A stretch of 64,000 bases of DNA from Rhodococcus pseudokoreensis (lineage in GTDB: Bacteria > Actinomycetota > Actinomycetes > Mycobacteriales > Mycobacteriaceae). Positions 4,657 through 25,247 of this stretch are shown in pieces. The first letter of the stretch is position 1, and every line of letters starts with the position of its first letter. The notes under the pieces are model-generated. The model was not told the origin of the DNA. It did not search any database and worked only from the letters and a program-made list of their open reading frames with translations. The position numbers and the translations under genes were made by a program. The stretch lies in assembly GCF_017068395.1 (NCBI RefSeq), contig NZ_CP070619.1:5084001-5148000 (forward strand). The letters are read 5' to 3'.

Positions 4657-4675
4657 GTGTTGCGAAATGGGACAC
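4657..4675 (-). promoter_or_regulatory. 19-bp AcoR-type motif, copy 1 (upstream of YciI-like gene)
   Basis: On the minus strand it reads GTGTCCCATTTCGCAACAC. It matches four further copies in the window (16253, 16299, 20463, 22274), all of which share TGTCC-N9-ACA. It lies 90 bp upstream of the ATG at 4766, a usual distance for an activator site. Confidence 0.55.
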
Positions 4676-4765
4676 GAGTCACCTCATCCGTACTTCTAAC
4701 CTTCGCAGGTGCGCAATCCGTGTGCATGTTCGGAACCGTTTCTTTCCCCCGCTCGAGGAGTGACC

Positions 4766-5050
4766 ATGGCCTTGTTTGCTGTGATCTGGTCGTATACCAC
4801 CGATGCCTCTGTCAAAGAGGCTGCGCATGCCGAACACCTGATTTTCGTCAAGGATGCCGCTGCCCGAGGCATGCTGCAGGAGGCCGGCGCCTGGGCCGAC
4901 GGCGCCGGAGCCCTACTGGTATTCCAAGCGGCCGGCGAAGACGCTTTGCGTTCCTTGCTTGCGGAGGATCCTTACGTCAAGCAGGGTGTGGTCGTAGAGC
5001 AGCGCATTTACCAATGGAATCCAGTCATAGGCCCTCTCGTCGGCATCTAA
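4766..5050 (+). CDS. YciI-like small protein
   Basis: A 94-residue protein of the YciI/muconolactone-isomerase-like ferredoxin-fold family. It starts MALFAVIWSYTT and contains DAAARGMLQEAGAW and a hydrophobic strand with AGALLVFQAA, followed by DPYVKQGVVVEQRIYQW near the end. The ATG at 4766 is preceded by GAGGAG five bases upstream. Such proteins are often small accessory enzymes or isomerases in catabolic operons; the exact reaction is unknown. The AcoR-type motif 90 bp upstream ties it to the catabolic island. An IS630 remnant follows directly. Confidence 0.75.
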   Translation: MALFAVIWSYTTDASVKEAAHAEHLIFVKDAAARGMLQEAGAWADGAGALLVFQAAGEDALRSLLAEDPYVKQGVVVEQRIYQWNPVIGPLVGI

Positions 5051-5059
5051 TGACAATGC

Positions 5060-5639
5060 GGCCCGCTCAGTCCTTGGTGGCTCGTTGTCGAGGTATCTTC
5101 ACGGTTTTCCTTCGGTAAGTACTTGGTTGGCGGTGTTGGTCTAGACGAACGGCGCACAGCGGGTGCTCCATCCGTTGATGAAGGCGCGGATCTCGGTGTT
5201 CAGCTCCGTGACGGAGCCGCAAAGTCCGCGGTGGATGGCCTGCCGTTCTTATTCCGAACCAACACCTCCACAAGCCCCATCCATGATGCCGGGGCGGGGG
5301 TGAGATGCCATGAATACGAAGACTTTCGGCCGGCCACGCCCGGACTTCGAACTTCTCGTGGGTGGCGTAGTTGTCCGTCACCAGATGCAGCTCTCGCTTC
5401 GGCCGGGCGCCGGCGATGTGTTTGAGGACGAGGAAACCTGACGGTGAAGTCGCGGGCTGCGCAGCTCGGTGACCGTGCCGGTGGTGATGTCCGGGACGGA
5501 GAACAGGGTGAAGGTGCGGTGTCGGGCGTAGTCGTGAGTGTGCTTCCCGCCCGAGCGATCCGCATCGACAGCGTCGGTGTGGTCCGATCCAGGGCCTGAA
5601 TCTGCGATATGTGGTCCACACAAGCACGATTGCGTTCAA
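5060..5639 (-). mobile_element. Degenerate IS630-family transposase remnant
   Basis: Minus-strand frames in sequence give pieces of one IS630-type transposase. These are QIQALDRTTPTLSMR and HDYARHRTFTLFSVPDITTG, then FLVLKHIAGARPKRELHLVTDNYATHEK (containing the catalytic D of the DNYATH motif), then HLTPAPASWMGLVE and a short tail. They are spread over all three frames, so several frameshifts separate them. The N-terminal helix-turn-helix half is missing, and no intact ends or target duplication were recognised. It is inactive and marks past mobile-element activity near the edge of the catabolic island. Confidence 0.75.
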
Positions 5640-5963
5640 CTGCGAACAGTGAGTTTCAAGCCGCGGCAGTAAAGTTACCTCATACTTCTATGACGGTTGA
5701 TCTCTCAACCCACGCTCCCGACTTGTGCTGTAGCTCCCGCGAAGGTGACCGCTGCCAACCCGCACCCTTCCCGCTTGACAAACGACGTCGGAACTGCGGT
5801 GACGGGCATGCCTGCATGTGAAGTCCAGACTTCGAAGTCTCTGCGGTCAAGGCAGATTGGCGCGCGTGCGTCCCCAGGGATATGTTACGCAAGGTTGTAA
5901 GGGGAGCCCGGGTATGCCGTCAGGTCGACCATCTACGCCGCCCATCACCTCGATCCCGCTAGG

Positions 5964-5993
5964 TTGTGTCGTGCATTTTCTCGCTCGACACAA
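5964..5993. promoter_or_regulatory. Inverted repeat TTGTGTCG-N14-CGACACAA
   Basis: Perfect 8-bp arms at 5964-5971 and 5986-5993, eight bases upstream of an 18-bp palindrome. The symmetry and AT-rich context suggest an operator. It differs from the TGTCC-N9-ACA motif. The regulator is unknown; the IclR protein at 14459 is one candidate. Confidence 0.4.
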
Positions 5994-6000
5994 GCCCGAA

Positions 6001-6018
6001 TTTGCTTATATAAGCAAA
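6001..6018. promoter_or_regulatory. Perfect 18-bp palindrome (putative operator)
   Basis: TTTGCTTATATAAGCAAA is its own reverse complement over 18 bases, very AT-rich in a GC-rich region. It is followed by ATTACTCTATTGTGG, which could hold a -10 element. The next genes on this strand are a CoA-transferase remnant (6190) and the aldehyde dehydrogenase (6502). A weaker similar sequence (TACATATATAAGTA) sits before the IclR gene at 14390. Confidence 0.5.
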
Positions 6019-6189
6019 CTATTACTCTATTGTGGTTTTAGAGTTTGGGTGTCATGCTTGCCCTGCGAGGTGTTCCAGGTCACTTTGGGTAGTCGTTTCT
6101 GAAGTGGGTTGCAAGGTGGCCGGACCGTCGGACGGCCCGCTGGCCATCGCCATCGCCATCGCAGCGATTCGATTCCCTACGCCGCAGTA

Positions 6190-6290
6190 GATTTGCGAAC
6201 AGGGAGCGGATGTCGTGAAGGTCGAGTCGCTGGGTGGGCGATGTCAGTCCGGGGTGCCGGCCAAAGGCGTCAGTCAGCAGCGAGTCTGAT
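6190..6290 (+). pseudogene. N-terminal fragment of a CaiB-type (family III) CoA transferase
   Basis: The frame reads CEQGADVVKVESLGG and then, in loosely preserved form, RCQSGVPAKGVSQQ. This corresponds to the LADLGADVVKVE.PGGD...R..GP..GVS block near residue 30-55 of CaiB/BaiF CoA transferases. A stop (TAG) precedes it in frame and another follows at about 6288. Only about 30 residues survive. It may be the scar of a gene once driven from the promoter region around 6000. Confidence 0.5.
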
Positions 6291-6501
6291 GCCTGTAAGT
6301 CTTCAAAACGCGATGAGTGCAGGACTTTTGAGGACCAGAGAGCGAATTTTCCCAATTCCTCTCGACTACAGAACTGCCGAGAACGGTTTTCGTACTGGCA
6401 CGCCTGCCGCACAGCGCGGACGACTGATCAGGCAAGTCAACTCCGCGCCGGGTGGTGAACTTCCAAACCAATTCTGCGCCTACACAGATCGGGGAACAAA
6501 G

Positions 6502-7974
6502 ATGTCCATAAACGTGGACCACCCAGCATTGTCGTCGTCGATCGCCGACGGGAGAACGTTGTTTATCGCAGGTCGATGGAGTACTGCCACCGACACTTTC
6601 GAGCGTGTAGATCCCTCCGATCTCCGCCGCGTGACGGGAATCTACGCTTCGGCAACTCCCGGCAATGTCGAGAGTGCGTATGCGGCCGCCGCCGGTGCTC
6701 AACCAGCGTGGTCCGAGACAACGGCGATTCAGCGGTCGGACTTTCTTCGTTCTGCCGCTGACCTTCTGGAAAGCCGCGTTGACGACGCTGCCCTGACGAT
6801 CACTGCGGACATGGGGAAGGCGATCCGCGACGCACGCGCCGAGGTCCTGCGAGGTGTCGCCATTCTCCGCTACTACGCGGGTGAGATCCTGCAGCCCAGT
6901 GGAGAGACATACCCCAGTGCTGATTCACACACGATGCTGATGACGGTAGAGGAGCCGCTCGGTGTCGTTTGTGCAATCACACCGTGGAACTTCCCCTTCG
7001 CGCTTCCGGCGTGGAAGATCGCGGCGGCAATAGGTTTCGGGAACGCAGTTGTGTGGAAGCCCGCCGAACCGGCCTGCGGATCCGCCGTGTTCCTGACGCG
7101 GATTCTCGCAGAAGCCGGGTTGCCAGCGGGGGTCCTCAATCTGGTGACGGGCAGCGGTAGAAAGCTTTCGGCGGCACTCACCGGGAACGCGCAACTCGCA
7201 GCCTTGACCTTCACCGGTTCGGGTGCAGTCGGGTCGCGACTACGTCAGGCCGTCGCCGATCGCAACGTCAAGGTCCAGCTCGAGCTGGGCGGCAAGAACC
7301 CGTCCATCGTTCTTGCCGACGCCGATGTCGAGGATGCAGCGCTACATATCGTGAAGAGCGCGATGCTCCACACCGGACAGCGCTGCACAGCGACGAGCCG
7401 GGTCTACGCGGACCGCACCGTCGCTCCCAGGCTGCGAGAACTGCTGGTGAAGCACGCCGATGCGCTCGTCGTCGGTGATGCGTACGACGAAGCCACCGAC
7501 GTCGGGCCCCTTGCCTCGGTGGAGCAACGGGACACGGTGGCCGGATACCTGCAACTCGCCCGCGACGAGAACGCCGAGTTCCTGACGGGCAGGGAGTTCG
7601 ATTCCGACACTTGCTATATCGCACCCACCATCCTGACCGGAGTGTCGGAGAAGAGCAGGCTCGTCCGGGAGGAGATCTTCGGACCAGTCGTGACCGTGCA
7701 GGAAGTCGACGGATTCGATGATGCGCTGAAGGTCGCGAACGACACGGACTACGGCTTGTCCTCCGGAGTGTTCACCAGAGACATCGCGACCGCGATGACC
7801 TTCATCCGGCGCACACAATCGGGGTTGGTGCACATCAATCGCGAGACCAGCAGTGTCGAGCCACATGTGCCGTTCGGGGGGCTCAAAGGCTCGAGCAGCA
7901 TGAGCAGAGAACAGGGAAAGGCCGCACGTACCTTCTTCACAACCACCAAGACCGCGTATGTCCGCTGGACCTAG
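6502..7974 (+). CDS. NAD(P)-dependent aldehyde dehydrogenase
   Basis: Oxidises an aldehyde to the acid. The 490-residue length is normal. AITPWNFP and the WKPAEPA cofactor block lie around residues 155-195, LELGGKNP (general-base Glu) around 260, and GQRCTATSRV (catalytic Cys) around 294. EEIFGPVV and PFGGLKGSS follow. The ATG at 6502 is chosen over an upstream open frame because the family N-terminus (LFIAGRWSTATDTFERVDPSD) starts shortly after it; the upstream 130 codons show no homology. It is 102 bases upstream of a BVMO gene. The pair fits oxidation of a semialdehyde arising after lactone opening, as 6-oxohexanoate dehydrogenase does in cyclohexanol degradation; the actual substrate is unknown. 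Confidence 0.9.
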   Translation: MSINVDHPALSSSIADGRTLFIAGRWSTATDTFERVDPSDLRRVTGIYASATPGNVESAYAAAAGAQPAWSETTAIQRSDFLRSAADLLESRVDDAALTITADMGKAIRDARAEVLRGVAILRYYAGEILQPSGETYPSADSHTMLMTVEEPLGVVCAITPWNFPFALPAWKIAAAIGFGNAVVWKPAEPACGSAVFLTRILAEAGLPAGVLNLVTGSGRKLSAALTGNAQLAALTFTGSGAVGSRLRQAVADRNVKVQLELGGKNPSIVLADADVEDAALHIVKSAMLHTGQRCTATSRVYADRTVAPRLRELLVKHADALVVGDAYDEATDVGPLASVEQRDTVAGYLQLARDENAEFLTGREFDSDTCYIAPTILTGVSEKSRLVREEIFGPVVTVQEVDGFDDALKVANDTDYGLSSGVFTRDIATAMTFIRRTQSGLVHINRETSSVEPHVPFGGLKGSSSMSREQGKAARTFFTTTKTAYVRWT

Positions 7975-8076
7975 AAGCCAGGCCGGACGGCCTTCCCGTA
8001 ATCAGCTCATCACAGTCTGCGACACAGAGCGCAATCAACAAACCCCAAGCAACACTCGGTATCAAAGGAGACAACA

Positions 8077-9693
8077 GTGAGCACTGCCGCACCAGCCGTG
8101 ACCGAAGTACTCGACGTTCTCGTCGTAGGAGCAGGATTCGCCGGGCTGTACCAGCTCGAAAATCTGCGGAGTCGAGGGTACTCGGTGAAAGTAGTCGAGG
8201 CGGGTGAGGACCTGGGCGGAATCTGGCACTGGAACCGCTACCCGGGCGCCCGAGTGGACAGCGAAGGTCCCATCTACCAGTTCACGCGCCCCGACCTATG
8301 GGATGAATTCGCGTTCTCCGAGCTCTACCCCGGAGGCGACGAACTGCGCCGCTACTTCAAGTACGTCGACGCGAAGCTCGATCTGAGCAAGGACATCTAC
8401 TACAACACCCGGGTCGATTCCGCCGAGTTCAACGATAAGACGAACACCTGGATCGTGACCGCGGAGAACGGAAGCACTTTCGTCTGCAAGTACTTCGTTC
8501 TCTGCACCGGATTCGCGGCAAAGCCGATCTTCCCGAAGCTCCCGGGAATGGACAGCTTCGCAGGGATCAACCACCACACCGGTTTGTGGCCCGAAGGCGG
8601 AATCGATTTCGCAGGAAAGCGAATCGCCATCATCGGTACCGGCGCCAGCGGTGTGCAGGTCGCTCAGGAGGCGTCGAAGGAAGCCGCACAGCTGACCATC
8701 TTCCAGCGCACCCCCGTTCAGGCGCTCCCGATGCGACAGCGCCAGCTCACCGACGAGGACAACGCGAAGATCAAGTCCGATCTGGCGGACAGATTCAGTC
8801 GTCGTGCGGCGTCATTCTCCGGCTTCGACTTCGACTTCATTCCCAAGTCAGCCCTCGAGGTGAGCGACGAGGAGCGAACCACCACTTACGAGCGACTGTG
8901 GGAGTACGGTTTCGAGTTCTGGCTCGGAACGTACCAAGACGTCTTCGTCGACGATGACGCAAACGACACGGCCTACGAGTTCTGGCGGGACCGGACGCGT
9001 GCCCGGATCAAGGACCCGGTCATCGCCGAGAAGCTGGCGCCGACGACGAAGGCGTACCCCTTCGGCGTGAAGCGCCCCTCGCTGGAGCAGACGTACTACG
9101 ACATCTTCAACCAGGACAACGTGCGTCTCGTCGATCTGCACGAGGACCCGATCGAGACGATCACGCCCACCGGACTGAAGACCACATCGGAAGAGCACGA
9201 GTTCGACATCATCGTCTATGCAACGGGCTTCGATGCCGTCACCGGTGGCCTGACCGCCATCGACATTCGCGGCACCGACGGTACGTTGCTCAGGGACAAG
9301 TGGTCGAACGGTGTGCGGGCAAACCTCGGGGTCGCAACGGCAGGATTCCCCAACCTGCTGTTCCTCTACGGACCACTGAGCCCGTCGGGCTTCTGCAACG
9401 GGCCAAGCTGCGCCGAGATCCAAGGTGACCTCATCGTCGACACCATCGACTACATGCGGGACAACGGATTGAACCGTATCGAGTCCGAGGCGGACGCGGA
9501 TGCTGCCTGGTCCGATCACGTCGCCGAGCTGACGACCGCGGCGCTCTACGACAAAGCCGACTCCTGGTACATGGGTGCCAACGTCCCGGGTAAACCGCGG
9601 CAGTTGCTGAACTACCCCGGTGGTCTTCCCCTCTACCTGGCCAAGTGGGACGAGATCGTGTGTGCGGGATACAAGGGCTTCACGCTTTCCTGA
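8077..9693 (+). CDS. Baeyer-Villiger monooxygenase 1 (type I, FAD/NADPH)
   Basis: Inserts oxygen next to a ketone carbonyl to form an ester or lactone. All fingerprints are present: FAD-binding VVGAGFAG (G18-G23), GGIWHWNRYPGARVD (about 47-61), the BVMO signature FAGINHHTGLWP (F161-W171), NADPH-binding IIGTGASG (about 185-192) and YATGFDAVTGG (about 385-395). The length (538) matches cyclohexanone/cyclopentadecanone-type enzymes. The GTG start has AAAGGAG at 8064-8070. It lies between an aldehyde dehydrogenase and an esterase, a classical cyclic-ketone degradation layout. A second BVMO at 26309 is a close paralogue. Both share an unusual NGPSCAEIQGD/NGPTCAEVQGE block. The natural ketone is not deducible. 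Confidence 0.93.
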   Translation: MSTAAPAVTEVLDVLVVGAGFAGLYQLENLRSRGYSVKVVEAGEDLGGIWHWNRYPGARVDSEGPIYQFTRPDLWDEFAFSELYPGGDELRRYFKYVDAKLDLSKDIYYNTRVDSAEFNDKTNTWIVTAENGSTFVCKYFVLCTGFAAKPIFPKLPGMDSFAGINHHTGLWPEGGIDFAGKRIAIIGTGASGVQVAQEASKEAAQLTIFQRTPVQALPMRQRQLTDEDNAKIKSDLADRFSRRAASFSGFDFDFIPKSALEVSDEERTTTYERLWEYGFEFWLGTYQDVFVDDDANDTAYEFWRDRTRARIKDPVIAEKLAPTTKAYPFGVKRPSLEQTYYDIFNQDNVRLVDLHEDPIETITPTGLKTTSEEHEFDIIVYATGFDAVTGGLTAIDIRGTDGTLLRDKWSNGVRANLGVATAGFPNLLFLYGPLSPSGFCNGPSCAEIQGDLIVDTIDYMRDNGLNRIESEADADAAWSDHVAELTTAALYDKADSWYMGANVPGKPRQLLNYPGGLPLYLAKWDEIVCAGYKGFTLS

Positions 9694-9738
9694 ACAGTCA
9701 ATTTGCCTCCCTCGATTAGTGATGAAAGTGAGCAACAC

Positions 9739-10644
9739 GTGTCCGTGAGCAAAGAATCCCTGTTCCTCAACGACCTGTACGCTTCGTGGCTTACCCGGTC
9801 CGAAGGAATGGACCTCGCCAGTCAGCGAGATATGTTCGAAGAGTGGCATCTTCCGACCATCGAACCCATCGACGTCACCTATGAGGAAGTGACAGCCAAC
9901 GGTGTGCCGGCAACTTGGGCGAAGCCTCTGGGGGCCGCCGAGGACCGCGTGATCGTCTTTACCCACGGTGGCGGGTTCGTGACAGGTTCACGGTTCTCAC
10001 ACCGCAAGCTCGCGGCACACCTCGCCAAACTGGCGGGTGTTCACGCCCTGATCGTGGACTATCGGCTCGCGCCGGAGCACAAGCACCCGGCCCAACTCGA
10101 AGACTGCATGGCCGTCCACAAGTGGCTCCGCACGCAAGGTTACAAGGCGGAGTACACGGCGACTGTCGGCGACTCGGCGGGTGCCAACCTCGCGATCTCG
10201 ACAGCGTTCGAACTCGCGAGCTTGGAACTTCCCACTCCGGCTGCCGTCGTCACGCTTTCGCCGTGGCTGGATATGGAGATCAAGGGGTTGACGGTCGAAT
10301 CGAACGACGCGGTCGACGTATTGGCCAAGAGGGCGGTTCTGGAAATGATGCGGGAGATGTTTCTCTCAGAACCCGCAGATGCAACGGACCCGCGGGCGAA
10401 CCCACTGCTCAACGACTTCACCGATTTCCCTCCGGTGTACGTATCGGTCGGAGGCTATGAGACGCTGCTGGACGACTCACGTCGGTTGGCCGAATTGATC
10501 GAGAAGGTGAGCGGCGAGGTCGTGCTCGACGTGGTCGATGAGCAACAGCATGTATTTCACTTCAACGCGGGGCGGGCGCCCGAGGCCGATCACGCGTTGA
10601 GCCGGATTGCCCGGTGGCTGCGACCCAAGTTGGGTCTCGTCTGA
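9739..10644 (+). CDS. Alpha/beta hydrolase of the hormone-sensitive-lipase family
   Basis: Ester or lactone hydrolase. The oxyanion-hole motif HGGG is at residues 76-79 and the nucleophile motif GDSAG at 144-148. Candidate acid and base residues follow in GGYETLLDDSRRL and EQQHVFHF. The frame is open from 9703 (TTG), but GTG 9739, preceded by AAGTGAG, is the more likely start. It is 45 bases after the BVMO stop, so the two are probably cotranscribed. The neighbourhood suggests it cleaves the BVMO product. Confidence 0.85.
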   Translation: MSVSKESLFLNDLYASWLTRSEGMDLASQRDMFEEWHLPTIEPIDVTYEEVTANGVPATWAKPLGAAEDRVIVFTHGGGFVTGSRFSHRKLAAHLAKLAGVHALIVDYRLAPEHKHPAQLEDCMAVHKWLRTQGYKAEYTATVGDSAGANLAISTAFELASLELPTPAAVVTLSPWLDMEIKGLTVESNDAVDVLAKRAVLEMMREMFLSEPADATDPRANPLLNDFTDFPPVYVSVGGYETLLDDSRRLAELIEKVSGEVVLDVVDEQQHVFHFNAGRAPEADHALSRIARWLRPKLGLV

Positions 10645-10651
10645 ACTCTGC

Positions 10652-10670
10652 CATACGCAGCGTGCGTATG
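10652..10670. promoter_or_regulatory. Inverted repeat CATACGCA-GCG-TGCGTATG
   Basis: Perfect 8-bp arms separated by three bases lie just after the hydrolase stop and 144 bases before the crotonase start. It could be an operator or a small RNA hairpin. No T run follows, which argues against a classical terminator. Confidence 0.35.
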
Positions 10671-10813
10671 AACGCGAAGGTGCTCGGCGGCAGGAGGTGA
10701 AGGTGTTCGTCGGCGGCGGTCTACACGGGTCTGGACCGACGACGAGTTCGTTCGCGTGTCGGTCGGGCACCAGTCGAACGATCGATCCGCAGTGAAGCGA
10801 GGGAGATACACCC

Positions 10814-11614
10814 ATGGATGGTCCAATCCTCGTCCAACGCGACGGGTTCATCGAGGCATGGACGATTAATCGACCCGCGCAGAGCAATCCCATTTCCGGG
10901 ATGGACGTTGTGGACGCATTGGTCGCCTGCGTCGATGCCGTCAACGCCGACTACGGCGCGCGAGCTGTCATCGTCACCGGCGCCGGAGCGACGTTTTCCG
11001 CCGGCGGCAACGTCAAGGACATGGCGAATCGTCGCGGATTGTTCGGGGGGAAGCCTCACGAACAACGGGATGGCTACAGAGCTGGGATACAACGGATTCC
11101 GCGAATCATGTACAACTGCGACGTGCCTCTCATCGCAGCGGTGAACGGTCCCGCAATCGGTGCCGGATGCGACCTCGCCCTCATGTGCGACCTCCGCATT
11201 GCCAGCGAAACGGCATTCTTTGCAGAGAGCTTCGTCAAGCTCGGAATCATCCCGGGTGACGGTGGCGCGTGGCTGCTACCCAAGGCCGTCGGGATGGCGC
11301 GGGCCGCAGAGGTGATATTGACGGGCGACCGTGTCGACGCGATGAAGACACTCGAGTGGGGATTGGTCTCCAGTGTCGTTGCGCCGGAGACGCTGCTCGA
11401 CGAAGCTCGCGCGCTCGCCGGCCGGGTGGCCGCCAATCCGCCACACACGGTACGGATGGCCAAGAGGCTCCTCCGCGAGGGGCAGCACCAAAGCCTCGAC
11501 AGTCTCCTCGAATTGTCCGCTGCCATGCAGGCGCTGGTTCAGCAGACGACCGATCACACCGAGGCGGTCAACGCCTTCATGGAGAAGAGAACTGCCGCCT
11601 TCACCGGCGAGTGA
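10814..11614 (+). CDS. Enoyl-CoA hydratase/isomerase (crotonase) family protein
   Basis: A 266-residue crotonase that hydrates or isomerises enoyl-CoA in beta-oxidation-like routes. VIVTGAGATFSAGGNVKD (about 53-70) supplies one oxyanion-hole NH, and AVNGPAIGAGCDLALMCDLRIA (about 110-131) the other. The catalytic position in FVKLGIIPGDGGAWLLPK carries D in GDGG, as in some hydratases. The start is preceded by GAGGGAGA. It ends at a strong hairpin and converges with two acyl-CoA dehydrogenases. The specific enoyl-CoA is unknown. Confidence 0.9.
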   Translation: MDGPILVQRDGFIEAWTINRPAQSNPISGMDVVDALVACVDAVNADYGARAVIVTGAGATFSAGGNVKDMANRRGLFGGKPHEQRDGYRAGIQRIPRIMYNCDVPLIAAVNGPAIGAGCDLALMCDLRIASETAFFAESFVKLGIIPGDGGAWLLPKAVGMARAAEVILTGDRVDAMKTLEWGLVSSVVAPETLLDEARALAGRVAANPPHTVRMAKRLLREGQHQSLDSLLELSAAMQALVQQTTDHTEAVNAFMEKRTAAFTGE

Positions 11615-11630
11615 CGTGCCCGAGAACCGA

Positions 11631-11670
11631 AGAACTCCGTGGATGCGAATTGATGCTTCCACGGAGTTCT
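11631..11670. terminator. Hairpin between convergent genes
   Basis: Perfect 13-bp arms, AGAACTCCGTGGA (11631-11643) and TCCACGGAGTTCT (11658-11670), with a 14-base loop. It lies between the crotonase (+) and the acyl-CoA dehydrogenase (-) stops, so it can serve both. There is only a short pyrimidine run after it. Confidence 0.7.
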
Positions 11671-11722
11671 CCCTTCAGTTCTGCTCGCGAAACTGGTGTT
11701 AGTTCTGGTAGCGCCTGGCACT

Positions 11723-13896: not shown

Positions 13897-13910
13897 GATG
13901 GTTCTTCCAT

Positions 13911-14330: not shown

Positions 14331-14389
14331 CAGGAAGCACTTCAAGGACTATGTCAGCCGGAGCAGGTTTCCGCAATAAAAGAGTTGAA

Positions 14390-14403: not shown

Positions 14404-14458
14404 AGATAGAGTGGTGGTGACCGCTCGGATGGAGCAGTGCCCGTAGGGAGAATGTGCC

Positions 14459-15217
14459 GTGATGCAACCAGAGGACGCCCTCAATGTTCGAGGCCGCAGT
14501 CGCCATCGAACCGTGGACCGCATTGCTGCGATTCTCGAGCTCGTAGCCCGATCCCGCACCGGACTCACCTTGAGTGGGATGGCCAAAGAGCTCGACGCGC
14601 CGATCAGTTCGACGCAAGGTCTCGTCAACGGCCTCGTTGCGACGGGTTATCTCGAGGAGCACGAGCGACGGTACTCGCTCGGCAGTGCCCCGTATCTACT
14701 CAACCGCCTCGCTGGGCGGCAGCCCGTCTCGACGGTCACGCACGCCGACCTCGAAGACGTCCACGCGAGTTCCGGCTTGACGACCGTGCTGTCGATCGCC
14801 GTCGGTCCGAACATCTTCTACGTCGACTACTGCTCTTCCGACCCACGGTTCGCGTACCTCGCCGAGAACTACGTGAGGCGATCGCTCATCCGTACCTCCG
14901 GCGGCTGGATACTGCTTGCCGGGATGGAGAAGCGTGACCTCTGGGCGTACATCCAGTCTCTGCCCGACGAGGATCGCGACACTGTCGAGCGGTTCTTCGC
15001 TGCCCTGCCGGAGATCGAACAGACCGGAATCTGCGCCTCCCCCAACGAGTCGACGGACGGCGACGGTGTCTCGGTCGCGGTTCGTGAGAACGGCAAGACC
15101 GTCGCCGCCGTCGGTGTCATCGCACCACACACCGTGATCACGAAGGAACGCGACAGGCTGGTCGCGCTCTTGGAGCAAGGTGCCCGGAGTTGGTCCGATC
15201 GCAGCGTACGACCGTAA
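14459..15217 (+). CDS. IclR-family transcriptional regulator
   Basis: A 252-residue regulator. The N-terminal winged helix (RTVDRIAAILELVARSRTGL, then MAKELDAPISSTQGLVNGLVATGYLEE) is followed by an effector-binding domain of about 170 residues (SIAVGPNIFYVDYC..., GGWILLAGM, GVSVAVRENGKTVAAVGV). The GTG at 14459 has GGGAG eight bases upstream; ATG 14462 is an alternative. It is divergent from the dehydrogenase pair and CoA-transferase remnant, so it probably controls them and perhaps the BVMO 1 cluster. The ligand is unknown. Confidence 0.9.
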   Translation: MMQPEDALNVRGRSRHRTVDRIAAILELVARSRTGLTLSGMAKELDAPISSTQGLVNGLVATGYLEEHERRYSLGSAPYLLNRLAGRQPVSTVTHADLEDVHASSGLTTVLSIAVGPNIFYVDYCSSDPRFAYLAENYVRRSLIRTSGGWILLAGMEKRDLWAYIQSLPDEDRDTVERFFAALPEIEQTGICASPNESTDGDGVSVAVRENGKTVAAVGVIAPHTVITKERDRLVALLEQGARSWSDRSVRP

Positions 15218-15241
15218 TGCAGCCGACCCGGGGCACCGTGG

Positions 15242-16174
15242 TCAGCCGGAGAACTGCTTGCCGAGGAATTCGACGACGGCACCGTGCAGTTCAGCGCTGC
15301 GCGGAATGGCACCGGTCATCCAGTACACGGCATGGACAAGGCCTTCATACAGTTCGACCTGCACGGGGACGCCCTGGTCGGCCAACCTCCGGCCGTAGTC
15401 CACGCCCTCGTCCCGAGTGACCTCGTATTCGTTGAGCAACAGCAGAGTGGAGGGAAGCCCGGACAGATCCGCGGCCTTGGCCGGGGAGGCATACGGATTC
15501 TCGGCGTCTTCCGGGGTGGCCAGGTACTGCTCCCAGAACCAGTCGATGGCTGCCGTGGTGACCAAGTACCCCTCGGCGTTCTCCTCGCGCGACGGGAATC
15601 GTGCCGTGCCGTCGATGACCGGATAGATCAATACCTGAGCGCGCAGTGCCGGGGCGCCGGTGTCGCGTGCCCGGAGGGCTGTGACCGCGGCCAGGTTGCC
15701 TCCGGCGCTGTCACCCATGACGGCTACGCGCGTGCCGTCGCCACCGAAGTCGGCTGCGTGCTCGACGACCCAGTTCAGTCCGGCGAACGCATCTTCGGGT
15801 GCGGCAGGAAACTTGTGCTCGGGAGCCAGCCGGTAACTCAGTGCAGCCACGACGACTTTCGCATCGGCGGCGAGTGCGCGACATGGCTGCTCGGTGACGT
15901 CGAGGCTGCCGGCGACCCAGCCACCGCCGTGGATGTACACCACGATCGGCAGAGGTGTTTCGGACTCCGGGATGTAGAGACGCACTGCCTGGTCGCCACC
16001 GGGGCCGGGGTAGACCGTGTCGACGACACGAGCGACGTCCGCCTTCGGTGCCTGGAGGCCGCTGAAGGACTCGACGACCTCACGGACTTCAGCAATGCTC
16101 ATCTGCTCGAACGACTTCAGTCCCTGCTCGTTCAAAGTATCTATCAAATTCTTGACCGCAGGATCGAGTGCCAT
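15242..16174 (-). CDS. Alpha/beta hydrolase of the hormone-sensitive-lipase family (esterase)
   Basis: A 310-residue esterase. HGGGW (82-86) supplies the oxyanion hole and GDSAGG (154-159) holds the nucleophilic Ser. The C-terminal LVHAVYWMTGAIP carries the likely catalytic His. The start MALDPAVKNL at 16174 is preceded by AAGGAG; a five-codon longer start (MKENT) overlaps that ribosome site and is less likely. It is divergent from another hydrolase at 16401 and shares a promoter region with two copies of the TGTCC-N9-ACA motif. It may hydrolyse esters or lactones made by a BVMO. Confidence 0.9.
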   Translation of the reverse strand: MALDPAVKNLIDTLNEQGLKSFEQMSIAEVREVVESFSGLQAPKADVARVVDTVYPGPGGDQAVRLYIPESETPLPIVVYIHGGGWVAGSLDVTEQPCRALAADAKVVVAALSYRLAPEHKFPAAPEDAFAGLNWVVEHAADFGGDGTRVAVMGDSAGGNLAAVTALRARDTGAPALRAQVLIYPVIDGTARFPSREENAEGYLVTTAAIDWFWEQYLATPEDAENPYASPAKAADLSGLPSTLLLLNEYEVTRDEGVDYGRRLADQGVPVQVELYEGLVHAVYWMTGAIPRSAELHGAVVEFLGKQFSG

Positions 16175-16252
16175 GGTGTTCTCCTTCATGTCATGAGCAA
16201 GTCTGTTCAGCCGGCAGGTGGAGCCACACTATGGGTGCGTTCGGCGCGGGGA

Positions 16253-16317
16253 GTGTCCGAAAATCACACACGCATCCGCCCCCCGGTGTTACAGGCGTGT
16301 GTTTCACAATCGGACAC
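16253..16317. promoter_or_regulatory. Two AcoR-type motifs in a divergent promoter (copies 2 and 3)
   Basis: Copy 2 is GTGTCCGAAAATCACACAC (16253-16271, plus strand). Copy 3 is GTGTCCGATTGTGAAACAC (16299-16317, minus strand). They face each other 27 bases apart, so the whole region is a large imperfect inverted repeat. It lies 79 bases from the esterase start (-) and 83 from the hydrolase start (+). Paired sites are expected for an AcoR-like dimeric activator that binds cooperatively. Confidence 0.6.
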
Positions 16318-16400
16318 GCCGACGCCCTGCGGTTCTAGTTTGATTCGGAGTGATCAACAGACGGCTGGAATTTCAGCGTCGCCGACAGAGAGGAACGGCA

Positions 16401-17144
16401 GTGAACGCGATTGCAGCGATCGAAGGAAGCGGTGACCATCGGGTCCTGGTGTTGCACGGCTGGGCGCTGGACAGCAGCGTATGGCTCACCGCCCGAGCCC
16501 GGACGGATCAGTCCCGCTTCACCTACGCGTACCTCGACTTTCCAGGATACGGGGTCAACCGGCCCGAAGCACCGGCCGACGGAATCGACGGGATGGCCGC
16601 GGTCGCCCTCGACGCCGCCGATCAGCTCGGATGGTCGACCTTTTCCGTTCTCGGACATTCGATGGGGGGCACCACAGCGCTTCGGGTGGCGACCCTCGCA
16701 CCTGAACGCGTGACCTCGGTCGTCGCACTGACGCCCGTCTCCCCGGCAGGTACCCCTCTCGACGAAGCGACCTACGGTTCCTTCGCCGGGGCCTGGGCAG
16801 ACCCGGGTGCAGCCATCCGTGGCGCACTGGCACCACACATCGACGAGACAGATCTGAAGAACCTCGTCGACCGCAACCGCTCGACGATGGACCAGGCAAC
16901 CTGGGAGTCCTACCTGAAGAACTGGACCAGTCCCGACTTCCTCGACCAGATGGGCACCTACGAAGGGCCTACCACCCTGATCGTGGGTGAGAGCGACCCG
17001 TTCGTCACCGCCGAGTACCTCGGGGACACGTTGGCGGCCTTGAAGAACGGGAACCTGAAGACCGTTCGGGGCAAAGCCGGGCACTACCCCATGGTGGAGA
17101 ACGCTCCGGAGACGGTGGCGTTGTCGGAGCAATCTCTGTACTGA
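16401..17144 (+). CDS. Alpha/beta-fold hydrolase
   Basis: A 247-residue hydrolase. LVLHGWALDSSVW carries the HG oxyanion motif (residues 17-29), GHSMGG (85-90) has the nucleophilic Ser, LIVGESDPFVT likely the acid, and GKAGHYPMVENAP the catalytic His. GTG 16401 with GAGAGGA upstream is preferred to the longer open frame from 16350, which has no family homology. It forms an operon with the Dabb protein at 17216 and is governed by the twin motif at 16253-16317. Family members cleave esters, lactones or C-C bonds; the substrate is unknown. Confidence 0.88.
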   Translation: MNAIAAIEGSGDHRVLVLHGWALDSSVWLTARARTDQSRFTYAYLDFPGYGVNRPEAPADGIDGMAAVALDAADQLGWSTFSVLGHSMGGTTALRVATLAPERVTSVVALTPVSPAGTPLDEATYGSFAGAWADPGAAIRGALAPHIDETDLKNLVDRNRSTMDQATWESYLKNWTSPDFLDQMGTYEGPTTLIVGESDPFVTAEYLGDTLAALKNGNLKTVRGKAGHYPMVENAPETVALSEQSLY

Positions 17145-17215
17145 TCTGACCGGGAACGCAATCCGGGTTCCGACCATGCCACGTTCGAATCACGAATCCA
17201 GGGAGGATTCTCACC

Positions 17216-17518
17216 ATGTTGAATCACGTTGTGACATTCAAATGGAAGCAGGACGTCAGTGACGAGCACATTGAGTCCTTTCACGAAGCTCTGAGCGCAG
17301 TCTCGGAGAAGATTCCGGAGGTCGTGGAATACCGTTACGGAAGGGATCTGGCCCTCAAGCCCGGCAGCGGCGACTACGCAATCTCCGCGACCTTCGAAGA
17401 CGTTCCCGACTTTCGCACATACCTGGCACATCCCGATCATGTGCGCCTCGTCCAGGAATTCATCTCGGTGATGGCCGAATCGTATTCGTCCGTTCAGATC
17501 GAATTCGCCTCGCGATAG
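17216..17518 (+). CDS. Dabb (stress-responsive alpha/beta barrel) domain protein
   Basis: A 100-residue single-domain protein beginning MLNHVVTFKWKQDVSDEHIE, with VEYRYGRDLALKPGSGDYAI and HPDHVRLVQEF. This is the typical Dabb pattern (dimeric ferredoxin-like barrel). The start is preceded by AGGGAGG. It follows the hydrolase by 71 bases and ends at a strong terminator, so it is the last gene of that short operon. Dabb proteins include cyclases and small ligand-binding enzymes; no reaction can be assigned. Confidence 0.85.
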   Translation: MLNHVVTFKWKQDVSDEHIESFHEALSAVSEKIPEVVEYRYGRDLALKPGSGDYAISATFEDVPDFRTYLAHPDHVRLVQEFISVMAESYSSVQIEFASR

Positions 17519-17521
17519 GCG

Positions 17522-17558
17522 CGACCGGACCGTCGTTCGTCGAACGACGGTCCGGTCG
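17522..17558 (+). terminator. Strong hairpin after the Dabb gene
   Basis: Perfect 16-bp GC-rich arms (CGACCGGACCGTCGTT and its complement) with a five-base loop, starting four bases after the Dabb stop. No long T run follows, as is common for actinobacterial hairpin terminators. Confidence 0.75.
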
Positions 17559-17561
17559 ACA

Positions 17562-18518
17562 GTGTCGCTCGTTTCCGAAAGTTGTGATCCAGTGGTGAGT
17601 GTCGAACACACCGGGCAGGCCCCGTCACGTGGTGCCCTGAGCCGTCCCGTCTCGGTGCGTGACGACGCGGCTGCGTGGGTGGAGGCGTGGCCGGATGCCC
17701 GAATACTTCGCGTGAACGGTCGCGGTCAGGTCCGGCTTGTCGACAGACAACTGATGCTGGAACCGGCCGCCGACCTCTACTCCGAGCCTCCCGCGCGCGC
17801 CGTGCTGCTCGGCGTCTGTGGCACGGTTCACGAGTGGGCGGTGCGGGACGAGTTCCTCGCTGACAATTCCTCTGCGGGAACCAAGGTCGAACTCGGTGAC
17901 CTGCGCTCACACGGAGCACTCCTCGATGCTGCTGACGCCGACCGGTATGTCACAGCGTTGGCATTGCTGACGTGGCAGGACGACGCCCATTTCTGCGCGC
18001 GGGATGGGGCGCCGACAACGATCACCTCGGGTGGTTGGATGGGCGTGTGCACGGCGTGCGGCCGGGAGGAATATCCGCGTACCGATCCCGCGATCATTTG
18101 TCTGGTGCACGACGGGGCAGACCGAGTACTGCTGGCGCGTCAGGCGAACTGGCCGGCACGGAACTTCTCGACGCTGGCGGGCTTCGTCGAGGCGGGCGAG
18201 TCTCTGGAAAGCTGTGTGGCACGGGAAGTTGCGGAGGAGGTCGGTCTCCTCGTCTCCGACGTGGTCTACGTCGGAAGTCAGCCCTGGCCCTTCCCGCGCT
18301 CCCTCATGCTCGGATTCCATGCCACGGCAGATCCCCGAGACGAGCTCGTCTTCATGGATGGCGAGATCGGCGAAGCTCACTGGTGCACCCGCGCGGAGGT
18401 ACGGGAGGCTCTGGCTGCAGGGGATTGGACGAGCTCGGCGGATGCGCACGTGTTGTTGCCCGGCGCAGTCTCGATTGCGAGGCGCATGCTCGAGGCCTGG
18501 GCGCGAGCCAGTGATTGA
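17562..18518 (+). CDS. nudC: NudC-like NADH pyrophosphatase (Nudix), degenerate zinc site
   Basis: Hydrolyses NADH/NAD or decaps NAD-RNA. The Nudix box GFVEAGESLESCVAREVAEE is complete. It is followed by the family hallmark SQPWPFPRSLM. The zinc ribbon before it normally has four cysteines; here it reads FCARDG...CTACG, so the second cysteine is Asp and only three remain. At 318 residues it has normal length. The frame begins at GTG 17562, only four bases after the hairpin; GTG 17592 or 17595 is a plausible later start because no ribosome site is clear. It stands alone and converges with the AcoR-like gene. Confidence 0.82.
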   Translation: MSLVSESCDPVVSVEHTGQAPSRGALSRPVSVRDDAAAWVEAWPDARILRVNGRGQVRLVDRQLMLEPAADLYSEPPARAVLLGVCGTVHEWAVRDEFLADNSSAGTKVELGDLRSHGALLDAADADRYVTALALLTWQDDAHFCARDGAPTTITSGGWMGVCTACGREEYPRTDPAIICLVHDGADRVLLARQANWPARNFSTLAGFVEAGESLESCVAREVAEEVGLLVSDVVYVGSQPWPFPRSLMLGFHATADPRDELVFMDGEIGEAHWCTRAEVREALAAGDWTSSADAHVLLPGAVSIARRMLEAWARASD

Positions 18519-18558
18519 CACTCTGTCTCGATCGGCACGGTCCCCTCCTCGACTGGCA

Positions 18559-20385
18559 CTACTGCGGAAGGAACCGGCTTCCGTCGATTCCCAGGGCACG
18601 CATTTTGCGGTAGAGGGTGGAGCGAGCTACCCCCAGGCGTTGCGCAGCCAGTAGTTTGTTGCCGTCGGTCTCGACGAGTGCCCTGAGCAACGCGTCACGC
18701 TCCGCCAATTCGAGTGAGGTCGAGGCATTTCGGCGGCGTAGATCACCGTCGCGGTATCCGTCGGGCAGATGCTGCACTCCGATGTCGGAGCCCATCGAAC
18801 GCAGGAGCGAGGACGCCAGAACCGATTCGAGCTCTCTGACATTTCCCGGCCAGTCCCGCGCGACCAGCAGTTGCAGAGCAGTGGGTTGCAGTCGCAGGCC
18901 GGTGCGGTCCGGGGAGTGCTTACGTAGTAGGGCGACACTGATGTCGGCGATATCTTCGGACCGATGTCGCAGTGGATCGATCTCTATGCGGCGCATGAAG
19001 TGATCGCACAGTCGACCGGCGGGGCCTTGACGGATCCCTTCGCCGGCGGTGGCAATGATGTGAGCGCGATTGTCGACGGCCTCGCTGAGGATCGCGCAGA
19101 CGTTGGAGACCAGTTGTTCCGGCAGGAGATCGAGATGCCGGATGATGAGGGCTCCGTCGACCTTGTTCCAATTGACCAGTCCGGCAATCCACGCGACGGG
19201 GTCGACGGAGGCGGTACCAGCGTCGAACACGGTGAAATGGCCGTCGGCATCCTGCATCCGGTGGAGGGCGCTCGCGGCAAAGAACTTGCCGGCGCCGGGT
19301 TCTCCGGTGACGAGCACAGGTGCGTCGATCGCGACGAGTCGCTCGAGTTCGGTCTGCAGTCGCTTCGTCGACAAACTGCGGCCGGGAACCTTGACAGTCT
19401 CCGTGCGTCTTTCGACGGTGGAGGCCGACGCCAATTGACGGGCGGGCGACTTCTTCGTATCGCGGGGATGTGGCCGCATCTCGATGACGATGCCCGCCGG
19501 CGTTCGGGAGTCTCCGACTCTGCGTGCAGTTGCGGAAACCGTGACGTTGTCGGCGAGTCTGACTTCCCCGATGAACTCGTCGCGGCCGGCCAGCATTCGG
19601 CATGCCCAATCCCACAAGAGCGCCTGGTCGGACGTGTCGATGATCTGCGCGGCCATCGGAGTGGTCATGATGACATCTTGATTCAAGGACACCACTGCAG
19701 AGGAGCCGCGTCGAGAGGCCTGCAGGAAGGACTGGAGAAGCAGTTGCTCGCGATCGGAGGACTCGGCGTAGAGACGCGACTGAATTTCGCGAACGGCTGA
19801 TTGCGCCAGGGCACCCATCAGCGCGTTGGAGTCCGACAGGTTGGAAGTGATGTCGAGGATCCCCTCCACTGTGCGGGTGATCGGATGGATGATAGGAACA
19901 CCGACGCACGCCAGGCTTTGCAGCGCCTCACGGAAGTGCTCACCACCGCTGACTTGGAACGGTCGTCGCTCCTCCAACGCGGTGCCGATCCCGTTGGTGC
20001 CGGTGTCCTCCTCGGCATAGCGGAAGCCGGGTGCCACGTAGGCGCGGTCCAAACGCGCTCGCAACCCTGCGTCGCCCGCCCTGCGGTCGACGATCTGAGC
20101 GGCGGAATCGGCCAGCAGGATGGTCGCGGGCGCGTCCTGCAGGTGTAGGACGAGGTTGTCGATCACGGGATCGGCGGCTCTCCTCAACCGGCTGTCACGA
20201 TCCACGTCCGGCGTGTAGGGAAGGTCGCCGTCGCCGGCCGAGACGCCGATAACTTCACACCGCCGCCATGACGCCTCGATCTCGGGTCGGAGGGTGCTCA
20301 ACTCCTGGCTCTCTCGTGATGGCGCTGATATCCAGAATCGTTCACGTTCGTTCAATGGCTCGCGGCCCGCCTTGTCGATACTCAT
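18559..20385 (-). CDS. AcoR-like transcriptional activator (GAF, degenerate AAA+, Fis HTH)
   Basis: A 608-residue activator. An N-terminal GAF-type sensor includes EEDTGTNGIGTALEERRPFQ and GVPIIHPITRTVEGILDI. A degenerate AAA+ domain carries LVTGEPGAGKFFAASALH (Walker A) and WPGNVRELESVL. The C-terminal Fis-type helix-turn-helix contains KLLAAQRLGVARSTLYRKMR. The sigma54-contacting GAFTGA loop is absent, as in actinobacterial AcoR-like proteins thought to act with ordinary sigma factors. ATG 20385 follows AAGG; GTG 20391 is the alternative. A motif copy lies 78 bases upstream (20463), so autoregulation is likely. It is the natural candidate to bind the TGTCC-N9-ACA sites of the island. Confidence 0.9.
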   Translation of the reverse strand: MSIDKAGREPLNERERFWISAPSRESQELSTLRPEIEASWRRCEVIGVSAGDGDLPYTPDVDRDSRLRRAADPVIDNLVLHLQDAPATILLADSAAQIVDRRAGDAGLRARLDRAYVAPGFRYAEEDTGTNGIGTALEERRPFQVSGGEHFREALQSLACVGVPIIHPITRTVEGILDITSNLSDSNALMGALAQSAVREIQSRLYAESSDREQLLLQSFLQASRRGSSAVVSLNQDVIMTTPMAAQIIDTSDQALLWDWACRMLAGRDEFIGEVRLADNVTVSATARRVGDSRTPAGIVIEMRPHPRDTKKSPARQLASASTVERRTETVKVPGRSLSTKRLQTELERLVAIDAPVLVTGEPGAGKFFAASALHRMQDADGHFTVFDAGTASVDPVAWIAGLVNWNKVDGALIIRHLDLLPEQLVSNVCAILSEAVDNRAHIIATAGEGIRQGPAGRLCDHFMRRIEIDPLRHRSEDIADISVALLRKHSPDRTGLRLQPTALQLLVARDWPGNVRELESVLASSLLRSMGSDIGVQHLPDGYRDGDLRRRNASTSLELAERDALLRALVETDGNKLLAAQRLGVARSTLYRKMRALGIDGSRFLPQ

Positions 20386-20462
20386 AGCCACCTTACATCA
20401 CTGGTCAGGGGATTTTCCGAGCTGACCCTCCCCCAAATGTAACCTGGCTCACATCTTTGGGT

Positions 20463-20481
20463 GTGTCCCGTTTTGCTACAG
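20463..20481 (+). promoter_or_regulatory. AcoR-type motif, copy 4 (upstream of the activator gene)
   Basis: GTGTCCCGTTTTGCTACAG. It lies upstream of the AcoR-like gene (start 20385, minus strand) and overlaps the last codons of the acyl-CoA synthetase. This suggests autoregulation of the activator. Confidence 0.5.
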
Positions 20482-22122
20482 TCCGCTCGCTGTACCGGAC
20501 CTGGTGGGAATGACTGCAACGTTGTGGTCGACACCATCGGAGACTGTGCTCGCCTGGTCTGTCGATGCGGGCTGACCTGTGTTTTCCCGATGCCGTCGTC
20601 TGATGTCGGCTTTGTCGATCTTGCCCATTGCAGTCTTGGGGATCTCATCGACTCTCACGAAACGATCGGGCAGCCAGAACCGGGGGAGGGTTGTCGCCAG
20701 GAACGTCCGAAGCTCCTCGTCGGTCACGTCGGCGTCCAGCCGGAGCCACGCGAGGGGGCGTTCCTGCCATGTGTCGTCCGGCACGGCGATGACGGCGGCC
20801 TCCGAGACAGCAGGATGAAGCATGAGCGCATTCTCGAGGTCCACCGAGGAAATCCATTCCCCACCGCTCTTGACGAGGTCCTTTTCGCGGTCTTTGATCT
20901 GCAGGCCGGCATCTGGGTGAACGGTCGCCACATCGCCGGTGCGCAGCCAGCCGTCTCGAAAGCTGTCCGGCGTTCGTGGATCGTCCAGGTATTCCCGGGC
21001 GACCCACGGCGAACGTACTTCCAGTTCGCCGACGGTCTGACCATCCCAGTGTTGCGGTGAGCCGGATTCGTCCACGACGCGGAGCTCGAACAACGGCAGT
21101 GGCCTGCCCTGCATCGAGCCGCCGGGGGAGAACGTGCCCATCGGAGATGTCTCGGTCATTCCCCATCCATTTACGACGCGGGCGCCTTGCTCAGCCCACC
21201 ACCGCGCCAGCGCGACCGGCGGCACCTGCCCTCCGAGCCACATCGTCTTCAGCTCCGAGAGGTCGTAGCCACAGTTACGGCGTAGGTGCTCGTCGCGCAT
21301 GAGGGCGGCGACCGTCGGCGAGCCGACGAAGGTGTCGGGCCGTTCGCCATGGATCAAGTCCAGGAACCGCTCGGGTGTGGGGTGCGGTCCGGGCAGCACC
21401 AGACGTGCGCCCTGGAGCGCCGCCGCGTAGGGGACACCCCAGCCGTTGACGTGCGACATCTGGGTGGCGAGCAGGTAGGCCCGCTCCGCGTCGATCTCGA
21501 CTCCGCCCTTGGTGCTGATCGCCATGGCGTGGAGCACGATGCTCCGGTGGCTGTAGACGACGCCCTTGGGCAACCCGGTCGTGCCCGAGGTGAAGCAGAT
21601 CGACGCCGCAGTGTTTTCGTCGACCTCCTGGAAGGACCCGAGGGTGCATGCACGTGAAACGAACTGATCATAGGGAATGACCTGGTCGAAGCCATCGATC
21701 GCACCGGGTTGGCCCACAACGACGAGGTGCCGAACCGTGGGAATCCGACCACGCATCGCCTCTACCAACGGGAGAAGATCCTCGTCGACGATCAGAACCT
21801 CATCTGAAACATGGTTGATCGTATAGGCCATGTGTTCGACCGGCATGCGGTGATTTACCGTGTGCAGGACGGCCCCGAGCGCTGGGACCGCGAAGTATGC
21901 CGCCAGGTGCTGACGGGTATTCCACGCCATGGTTGCGATTCGGGACCCGCGTTTCACGCCGATCGATGCGAGCGCACCGGCCAGATCCCTCACGTCGGAG
22001 ACCAGGTCCCGGTATGTGAAACTGCGAACCCCGTCCGAAGTCCAGGCCGTGTTGATCCGAGCGCCATTCACGTTCTCGGCGCGCCACAGCAGCCTCGCCA
22101 CCGACAATTGACTACTCATCAT
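20476..22122 (-). CDS. Fatty-acid-type acyl-CoA synthetase (AMP-binding)
   Basis: Activates a carboxylic acid with ATP and CoA. FTSGTTGLPKGVVYSHRS (about residue 185) is the AMP-binding signature. GWGMTETSPMG, DGWLRTGDVATVHPDAGLQIKDREKDLVKSGGEWISSVDLE and the C-terminal PKTAMGKIDK (catalytic Lys) are all present. The length of 548 is normal for medium- or long-chain ligases. ATG 22122 is favoured; GTG 22134 is possible. It lies immediately upstream of the activator gene and is divergent from the SMP-30 gene, with an AcoR-type motif in the shared promoter. It would feed hydrolysis products into beta-oxidation. Confidence 0.9.
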   Translation of the reverse strand: MMSSQLSVARLLWRAENVNGARINTAWTSDGVRSFTYRDLVSDVRDLAGALASIGVKRGSRIATMAWNTRQHLAAYFAVPALGAVLHTVNHRMPVEHMAYTINHVSDEVLIVDEDLLPLVEAMRGRIPTVRHLVVVGQPGAIDGFDQVIPYDQFVSRACTLGSFQEVDENTAASICFTSGTTGLPKGVVYSHRSIVLHAMAISTKGGVEIDAERAYLLATQMSHVNGWGVPYAAALQGARLVLPGPHPTPERFLDLIHGERPDTFVGSPTVAALMRDEHLRRNCGYDLSELKTMWLGGQVPPVALARWWAEQGARVVNGWGMTETSPMGTFSPGGSMQGRPLPLFELRVVDESGSPQHWDGQTVGELEVRSPWVAREYLDDPRTPDSFRDGWLRTGDVATVHPDAGLQIKDREKDLVKSGGEWISSVDLENALMLHPAVSEAAVIAVPDDTWQERPLAWLRLDADVTDEELRTFLATTLPRFWLPDRFVRVDEIPKTAMGKIDKADIRRRHRENTGQPASTDQASTVSDGVDHNVAVIPTRSGTASGL

Positions 22123-22273
22123 GAGCCCATCCACCGGTCCTACCGCCTTTCATCAGATCGCTCCAAGTCGGGTCCTCGATGGATGCCAACTCTGCGACCA
22201 CGTAATAGGCCGATCCTGTACCCCCCGTCAGGCACAAGGTGTCCTATAACGAGTCATCCCTTGCCCCAACGTG

Positions 22274-22292
22274 GTGTTGCATTTTCGGACAT
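22274..22292 (-). promoter_or_regulatory. AcoR-type motif, copy 5 (acyl-CoA synthetase/SMP-30 divergent promoter)
   Basis: The minus strand reads ATGTCCGAAAATGCAACAC. It lies 90 bases upstream of the SMP-30 ATG and about 150 upstream of the acyl-CoA synthetase start. Confidence 0.55.

Positions 22293-23349: not shown

Positions 23350-25247
<1,898 letters not shown>

Follow-up and report, generated by a model that had tools for sequence, protein, structure and literature searches.

The window analysed here, 64,000 nt of Rhodococcus pseudokoreensis contig NZ_CP070619.1 (positions 5,084,001 to 5,148,000), contains a gene island with two Baeyer-Villiger monooxygenase (BVMO) genes, several hydrolase genes and, at 18559–20391, a gene for an AcoR-like regulator. 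The initial annotation listed five copies of the repeat TGTCC-N9-ACA upstream of island genes and proposed that the AcoR-like protein controls ester or lactone hydrolysis together with acid activation. This raises two questions: whether the repeats are operators of this protein, and how a relative of AcoR would act on them in a group of bacteria reported to lack sigma54. We consider it highly probable that the AcoR-like protein uses the sites as its operators in an autoregulated regulon, and the protein is predicted to act as a class II-like activator of sigma70-type promoters. Our confidence in the details of activation is lower than in the regulon and its regulator, and it is low for the assignment of inducer and substrate.

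Repeated sites in the window

All five copies matched the repeat exactly at the positions and strands originally given, and four of the five carried the G in the additional column of the motif. They are in general intergenic; the exception is 20463–20481, which reaches into the acyl-CoA synthetase frame (20476–22134, minus strand) at the 3' end of the latter and is thus not fully intergenic. In the gene-ward reading, GGACA formed the gene-side end in 5/5 sites, so that the two sites between the divergent hydrolase genes each point to their own gene. The copy at 22274–22292, previously assigned to SMP-30 and acyl-CoA synthetase jointly, belongs by orientation to SMP-30, while the synthetase has its own weaker site (22240–22256). 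No clear copy had been seen before BVMO 1, and the full matrix listing likewise contained no site there scoring at least 10.

Counting exact matches of TGTCC-N9-ACA gave six in the window, compared with a shuffle mean of 1.69 (sd 1.38), and at least six occurred in 2 of 100 shuffles. On count alone, five copies are modestly unusual, and the 8-base core is weak evidence. Extended by the G and permitting one mismatch, the pattern was not enriched in the window (18 matches, 15.5 expected), so this loose form is useless on its own. Across the 9.87-Mb genome, the 8-base core matched 160 times, compared with 121 times in the reversed control, and the fuller pattern TGTNNSNNWNYSGGACA had 20 matches (19 places) against 8, five of the places being the window sites. 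Genome-wide scatter of the copies, named beforehand as an observation that would speak against the proposal, was thus found in half measure for the bare core and less for the fuller motif. Among the other 14 places, five had a further AcoR-like regulator gene no more than 15 kb away (approximately 0.3 expected by coordinate arithmetic), two of these five adjoining each other. The perfect palindrome TGTCC-N7-GGACA was rejected as a genome-wide marker, with seven places against 11 in the reversed control; two of these seven stand on either side of the same AcoR-like gene.

Scored with a matrix trained on sites from elsewhere, four of the five window sites reached 29.7, 25.8, 23.3 and 22.4, compared with 20.8 for the best of 60 Markov surrogate windows; no window site was included in this matrix, but some of its training sites had first been found with a matrix that did include them. 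Chance likeness among promoters would agree with a core that is barely enriched genome-wide and with the lack of enrichment of the one-mismatch pattern, but conservation, the independent matrix, the common orientation and the fixed distance to a -10-like element all argue against it, and we regard it as scarcely credible. The five sites are real.

Conservation in sister islands

The island also occurs in five congeneric genomes, whose regulators are 93–98% identical to that of the window. The right hydrolase site was identical in all five sister islands, and the left hydrolase and regulator sites were also found in 5/5, the former changed and the latter with one change in island G010. Start-to-start distance of the hydrolase pair sites varied from 31 to 48 across islands while the sites themselves were nearly unchanged. 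The SMP-30 site was identical in the four sister islands holding that segment, the BVMO 2 site was invariant in the four with BVMO 2, and the YciI site was present in the four that cover it, G026 and G010 differing there at one or two bases. The weaker acyl-CoA synthetase site was found in 4/4 islands, with one change in G004. In G010, the most diverged island, the DNA upstream of the regulator operator differs, yet the operator and the -10-like TACATT are retained.

Promoter geometry

Within the BVMO subgroup, NANNNT began at exactly offset 22 in 15 of 21 promoters (mean 0.83 per offset; maximum of 7 in 1500 shuffles), divided into 5/7 in the window and 10/14 outside it. These promoters were obtained from matrix scans at a cut-off of 13 with the window sites in training. 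The set omits locus L050 (a near copy of L049), the L049 hydrolase pair (identical to that of the window), and L052 and L053 (other operator types). Two sites below the cut-off, both before acyl-CoA synthetase genes (L049 7022 and window 22239), were added by hand, and without them the count was 14/19. In the wider family, 15 of 29 operators had TAnnnT 20–23 nt past the operator towards the regulator, against a maximum of 5 in 2000 shuffles for any four-offset window. With the -10 hexamer set at -12 to -7 by convention, the operator would span about -51 to -35, with its centre near -43, and would overlap or replace the -35 box; these positions derive from the -10-like offset and not from starts mapped here.

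An experimental anchor is offered by the propane monooxygenase system prmABCD of Rhodococcus. For strain BCP1 (PMC4428276), prmA transcription is reported to begin at a C lying 55 bp upstream of the start codon; a palindrome covers the -35 region of the monooxygenase operon, as proposed here, and a Fis-family regulator gene stands alongside. Carried over to strain RHA1 by homology, this start is base 35 past the operator, a C in agreement with BCP1, whereas the same arithmetic on the R. aetherivorans BW2 plasmid gives the 32nd base, a T; the anchor is consequently good to approximately 3 nt. GTCTC-N5-GAGAC was intact before prmA in 14 of 16 Rhodococcus loci (L235–L249 and L251), L245 and L248 being one base off. 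The pattern CAGATC-N16-18-TTGTAT was rejected as a finder of the BCP1 prmA promoter, since its matches in 10 of 28 genomes included none resembling that promoter. The prm system differs from the present one in having T at operator base 5, a symmetric operator, and propane instead of a BVMO pathway. The RHA1 prm regulator has an R-A recognition helix and a GTCTC-type operator; RHA1 (G005) also carries an ortholog of the window regulator. Together with the Fis-family regulator of prm, mycobacterial MimR is among the closest known systems.

Geometry of this kind is by itself no proof of activation, and the island also holds an IclR-type regulator gene at 14459, so the sites could belong to a repressor or to the IclR-type protein. 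Against this stand the position of the operator upstream of the -10-like element and not over it, the occurrence of the operator type with AcoR-like regulators in other genera, and the agreement between its base and their recognition helix. We judge this explanation very unlikely and retain the AcoR-like protein as the predicted activator.

Regulator protein

Pfam analysis of the 18559 protein revealed GAF, Sigma54_activ_2, AAA_lid_14 and HTH_8 matches, with PF01590 (GAF, 34.3 bits) and PF02954 (HTH_8, 38.4 bits) both above cut-off, and the Sigma54_activat profile matching only in its first third. This order of GAF, AAA+, AAA lid and Fis-type helix-turn-helix is that of AcoR and other sigma54-dependent enhancer-binding proteins, but the 18559 protein differs from them in its Walker A sequence, GEPGAGKF, which lacks an intact GK[ST], in having no GAFTGA-like word, and in an operator placed beside the -10 element. 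Classical sigma54-dependent activators bind a remote enhancer. Among 87 family frames (near copies counted), GK[ST] was present in 8, another residue in 45, and the pattern was unmatched in 34; a GAFTGA-like word was found in none, compared with 51 of 56 control frames (the usable frames from 72 loci of other phyla). The sigma54 DNA-binding domain PF04552 had no match in this genome, while 4 of 14 control genomes matched. With GAFTGA missing and the genome search negative for the sigma54 domain, the protein is not a classical sigma54-dependent AcoR; by its sequence it is of AcoR-family descent but not a sigma54 activator.

Actinobacteria are reported to lack sigma54 (PMC3162934, PMC12316311). 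DhaR, TyrR and HupR are presented in the first of these as enhancer-binding-protein paralogs that lost the GAFTGA element and sigma54 and use sigma70. The best NCBIfam match of the 18559 protein was the DhaR model, at 137.2 bits far below its cut-off of 551. Compared with DhaR, TyrR and HupR, the pathway differs, and here there are many paralogs per actinobacterial genome and a fixed distance to the -10 element.

Operator family and covariation with the recognition helix

To place the sites in a wider family, we compared 68 upstream regions of AcoR-like regulators, retained from 87 without near copies; they came from genus, order and class samples and included the window regulator and one ortholog. 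Of 14336 combinations of half-site and spacer, GTCTC-N5-GAGAC was the most frequent, occurring in 31 regions (mean 1.3), while TGTCT-N7 occurred in 18 and TGTCC-N7 in 9, each peaking at its own spacing. The general family operator is probably close to TGTCY-N7-RGACA, the window sites representing a TGTCC type with a relaxed distal half. Among the papers listed in literature searches, none described this operator for BVMO regulators.

Operator base 5 followed the recognition helix: R-A helices went with T in 17/17 cases and R-S helices with C in 8/9 (Fisher p 5.8e-6, sites chosen blind to base 5). The table was drawn from the 29 regions scoring at least 8.0, of which 26 had like C or T on both sides; the R-S regulators L062, L105 and L100, with unlike halves, were excluded. 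At a score threshold of 7.5 the picture was noisier. The 18559 protein, with an R-S helix and TGTCC operators, fits the rule, as does the RHA1 prmA regulator, found later (SRATIYRK with GTCTC).

Gene sets of related loci

Similar gene sets accompany related regulators, approximately 44–46% identical. In L049 and L050, tblastn found acyl-CoA synthetase, SMP-30, NMO, crotonase, acyl-CoA dehydrogenase and BVMO; BVMO matches in this and the other related loci are to BVMO 1, the query set holding no BVMO 2. By annotation, R. aetherivorans pN1 has a similar set, its BVMO labelled NAD(P)/FAD-dependent oxidoreductase. Gordonia hydrophobica has the set with no tblastn match for NMO or acyl-CoA dehydrogenase. 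Other sets differ: L051 has BVMO, hydrolase and aldehyde dehydrogenase, the Pseudonocardia locus L118 gave no tblastn match for BVMO or SMP-30, and Rhodococcus DMU1 has no SMP-30. In L049, L050, L051 and L120, matrix matches of at least 13 precede such genes with the stricter half gene-side, a few reading GAGACA or GGAACA, and one L051 match scores nearly alike on both strands. The place before acyl-CoA synthetase also holds a site in L049 (11.9) and L120 (18.0).

L051 lies in the R. pseudokoreensis genome itself (C6 8047000-8066900) and contains a second BVMO-hydrolase pair, 67–68% identical to BVMO 1 and its neighbour, beside a 46% identical paralogous regulator. This pair has an operator-like site (15.4); BVMO 1 of the window has none.

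Weighing the regulon

The operator before AcoR-like genes of other genera, the tracking of base 5 with the helix and the similar gene sets with sites all favour an AcoR-type regulon under the 18559 protein, and a site before the regulator gene as well as several island genes fits an autoregulated local regulon. Several observations weigh against this reading and its extension to the family. The left hydrolase (13.9) and BVMO 2 (16.4) sites fall within noise on the independent matrix. The right hydrolase promoter has its -10-like element at 19 instead of 22, none occurs at 22 for the acyl-CoA synthetase site, and 4 of the 14 outside sites also fail. At the score used, 39 of the 68 regulator upstream regions had no site and 29 reached 8.0. 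GC-rich half-sites also ranked high (CGGCG-N7, 27 regions), which we put down to base composition, and TGTCC-N7, at 9 regions, exceeded only its own other spacings. The covariation amounts to two helix changes on the tree, both base-matched, and L077 has a base change without a helix change; with only two helix changes, the independent covariation evidence is small. Finally, seven other AcoR-like genes in the genome reach E 1e-60, one of them 46% identical with an R-S helix.

Because such paralogs share the genome, cross-binding is possible, and the sites might be bound mainly by a paralogous AcoR-like regulator or shared among several. The 46% identical paralog (G000:C6:8056136) has sites of the same type around it, and genome G027 has sites identical to those of the hydrolase pair while its closest regulator is only 46% identical. 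Yet a site precedes the 18559 gene in all six islands and the sites co-occur with its orthologs; we consider control mainly by a paralog unlikely, if less so than control by a repressor or the IclR-type protein.

With the 18559 protein as regulator, a dimer with the Fis-type helix-turn-helix would bind a 17-bp imperfect palindrome, approximately TGTnnS-N5-SGGACA, with the stricter half towards the regulated gene. The operator would stand in place of the -35 box, 22 nt upstream of the -10 element. The GAF domain may sense a pathway-related ketone, ester or acid, and the regulator would then assist initiation by ordinary sigma70-type RNA polymerase in the manner of a class II activator. Predicted targets are its own gene, the two divergent hydrolases, the SMP-30/NMO/crotonase operon, acyl-CoA synthetase, the YciI-like protein and BVMO 2. 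The sequences themselves show the sites with their conservation, orientation and -10 spacing, the covariation of helix and operator, and the lack of GAFTGA and of a detectable sigma54 domain; binding, activation rather than repression, polymerase contact, inducer and substrate are inferred. Judged by protein family, the BVMO product would be an ester or lactone, to be opened by the hydrolases and SMP-30, and aldehyde dehydrogenase and acyl-CoA synthetase would lead on to beta-oxidation. The proposed joint control of hydrolysis and acid activation needs amendment in scope and in regulator class, as the regulon probably reaches BVMO 2 and a classical sigma54 mechanism does not apply.

Features of the window

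Coordinates of operators, promoter elements and genes are given in Table 1.

Table 1. Predicted operators, -10-like elements and genes in the window
Feature	Position	Strand	Sequence	Remark
Operator before YciI-like gene	4657..4675	+ (gene-ward)	GTGTTGCGAAATGGGACAC	Top independent matrix score, 29.7
-10-like element, 22 nt past YciI operator core	4697..4702	+	TAACCT	TACCCT in two sister islands
YCII-domain protein (YciI-like)	4766..5050	+		PF03795, 36.8 bits, cut-off 24
IclR-type regulator gene in island	14459
HSL-type alpha/beta hydrolase (LipP1 family), left divergent gene	15242..16174	-		Predicted start codon
-10-like element, 22 nt past left hydrolase operator core	16226..16231	-	TAGTGT
Operator before left hydrolase	16253..16271	-	GTGTGTGATTTTCGGACAC	Independent matrix score 13.9, within noise
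Operator before right hydrolase	16299..16317	+	GTGTTTCACAATCGGACAC
-10-like element before right hydrolase, offset 19	16336..16341	+	TAGTTT	Exception to 22-nt rule; offset 22 in G010 island
Alpha/beta hydrolase, right divergent gene	16401..17144	+		Predicted start codon
AcoR-like regulator	18559..20391	-		GAF, degenerate AAA+, Fis-type HTH_8 by Pfam matches; helix GVARSTLYRK
-10-like element, 22 nt past regulator operator core	20436..20441	-	TACATT	Kept in 5/5 sister islands
Operator before AcoR-like regulator gene	20463..20481	-	CTGTAGCAAAACGGGACAC	Overlaps acyl-CoA synthetase 3' end
AMP-binding acyl-CoA synthetase	20476..22122	-		Predicted start codon
Weaker operator before acyl-CoA synthetase	22239..22257	-	TGACTCGTTATAGGACA (core)	Scores 12.3 and 13.9, within noise
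Operator before SMP-30	22274..22292	+	GTGTTGCATTTTCGGACAT
-10-like element (weak), 22 nt past SMP-30 operator core	22314..22319	+	AACAGT
SMP-30/gluconolactonase-like	22383..23282	+
NMO, after SMP-30	23365-24351
Crotonase, after NMO	24348-25247
Sixth operator, before BVMO 2	26173..26191	+	GTGGATCGATATCGGACAG	Absent from the initial annotation; matrix scan, 16.4 on independent matrix; 26174-26190 as the 17-bp site
-10-like element, 22 nt past BVMO 2 operator core	26213..26218	+	TAGCGT
BVMO 2 gene region	26309..27946	+
Sixth exact TGTCC-N9-ACA match	27355-27371	minus		Within BVMO 2 gene

The BVMO 2 promoter (26167-26190) also has a TGTCCG half upstream, giving TGTCCG-N12-CGGACA, as if a stronger distal half were shifted by 7 bp; in G008 this half reads TGTCTG. 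A further matrix match, CGGTAGCGAATCCGGACAC (41501-41519, minus strand, score 16-17), lies outside the island and within the surrogate range. By eye only, positions 5067-5639, flanked by the YciI and aldehyde dehydrogenase genes, resemble the remnant of an insertion-sequence transposase, and F420 cofactor genes adjoin the island at positions 1-3000. On two Rhodococcus plasmids (L215 and L218), a 92–93% identical regulator occurs near cofC, cofH, F420 ligase, nucleoside hydrolase and aldehyde dehydrogenase.

Implications

AcoR-like regulators adjoin catabolic monooxygenases in Actinobacteria, bacteria reported without sigma54, and their mode of action is little known. We lean slightly towards a general picture in which a large actinobacterial branch of former enhancer-binding proteins, spanning the class and perhaps the phylum, works by class II activation of ordinary promoters. 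Its members would have a common operator frame, TGTCY-N7-RGACA, at about -43, in which a helix residue sets the base (R-A with T, R-S with C), and the distal half would be relaxed in the BVMO subgroup as polymerase contact holds the gene-proximal half only. Since the operator can be read, its spacing to the -10 element is constant and a rule links helix residue and base, the mechanism is directly testable, and biocatalysis based on BVMO and alkane monooxygenase pathways could use such promoters and sensors. If the general picture is true, the regulons of hundreds of unstudied catabolic regulators would become predictable from sequence.

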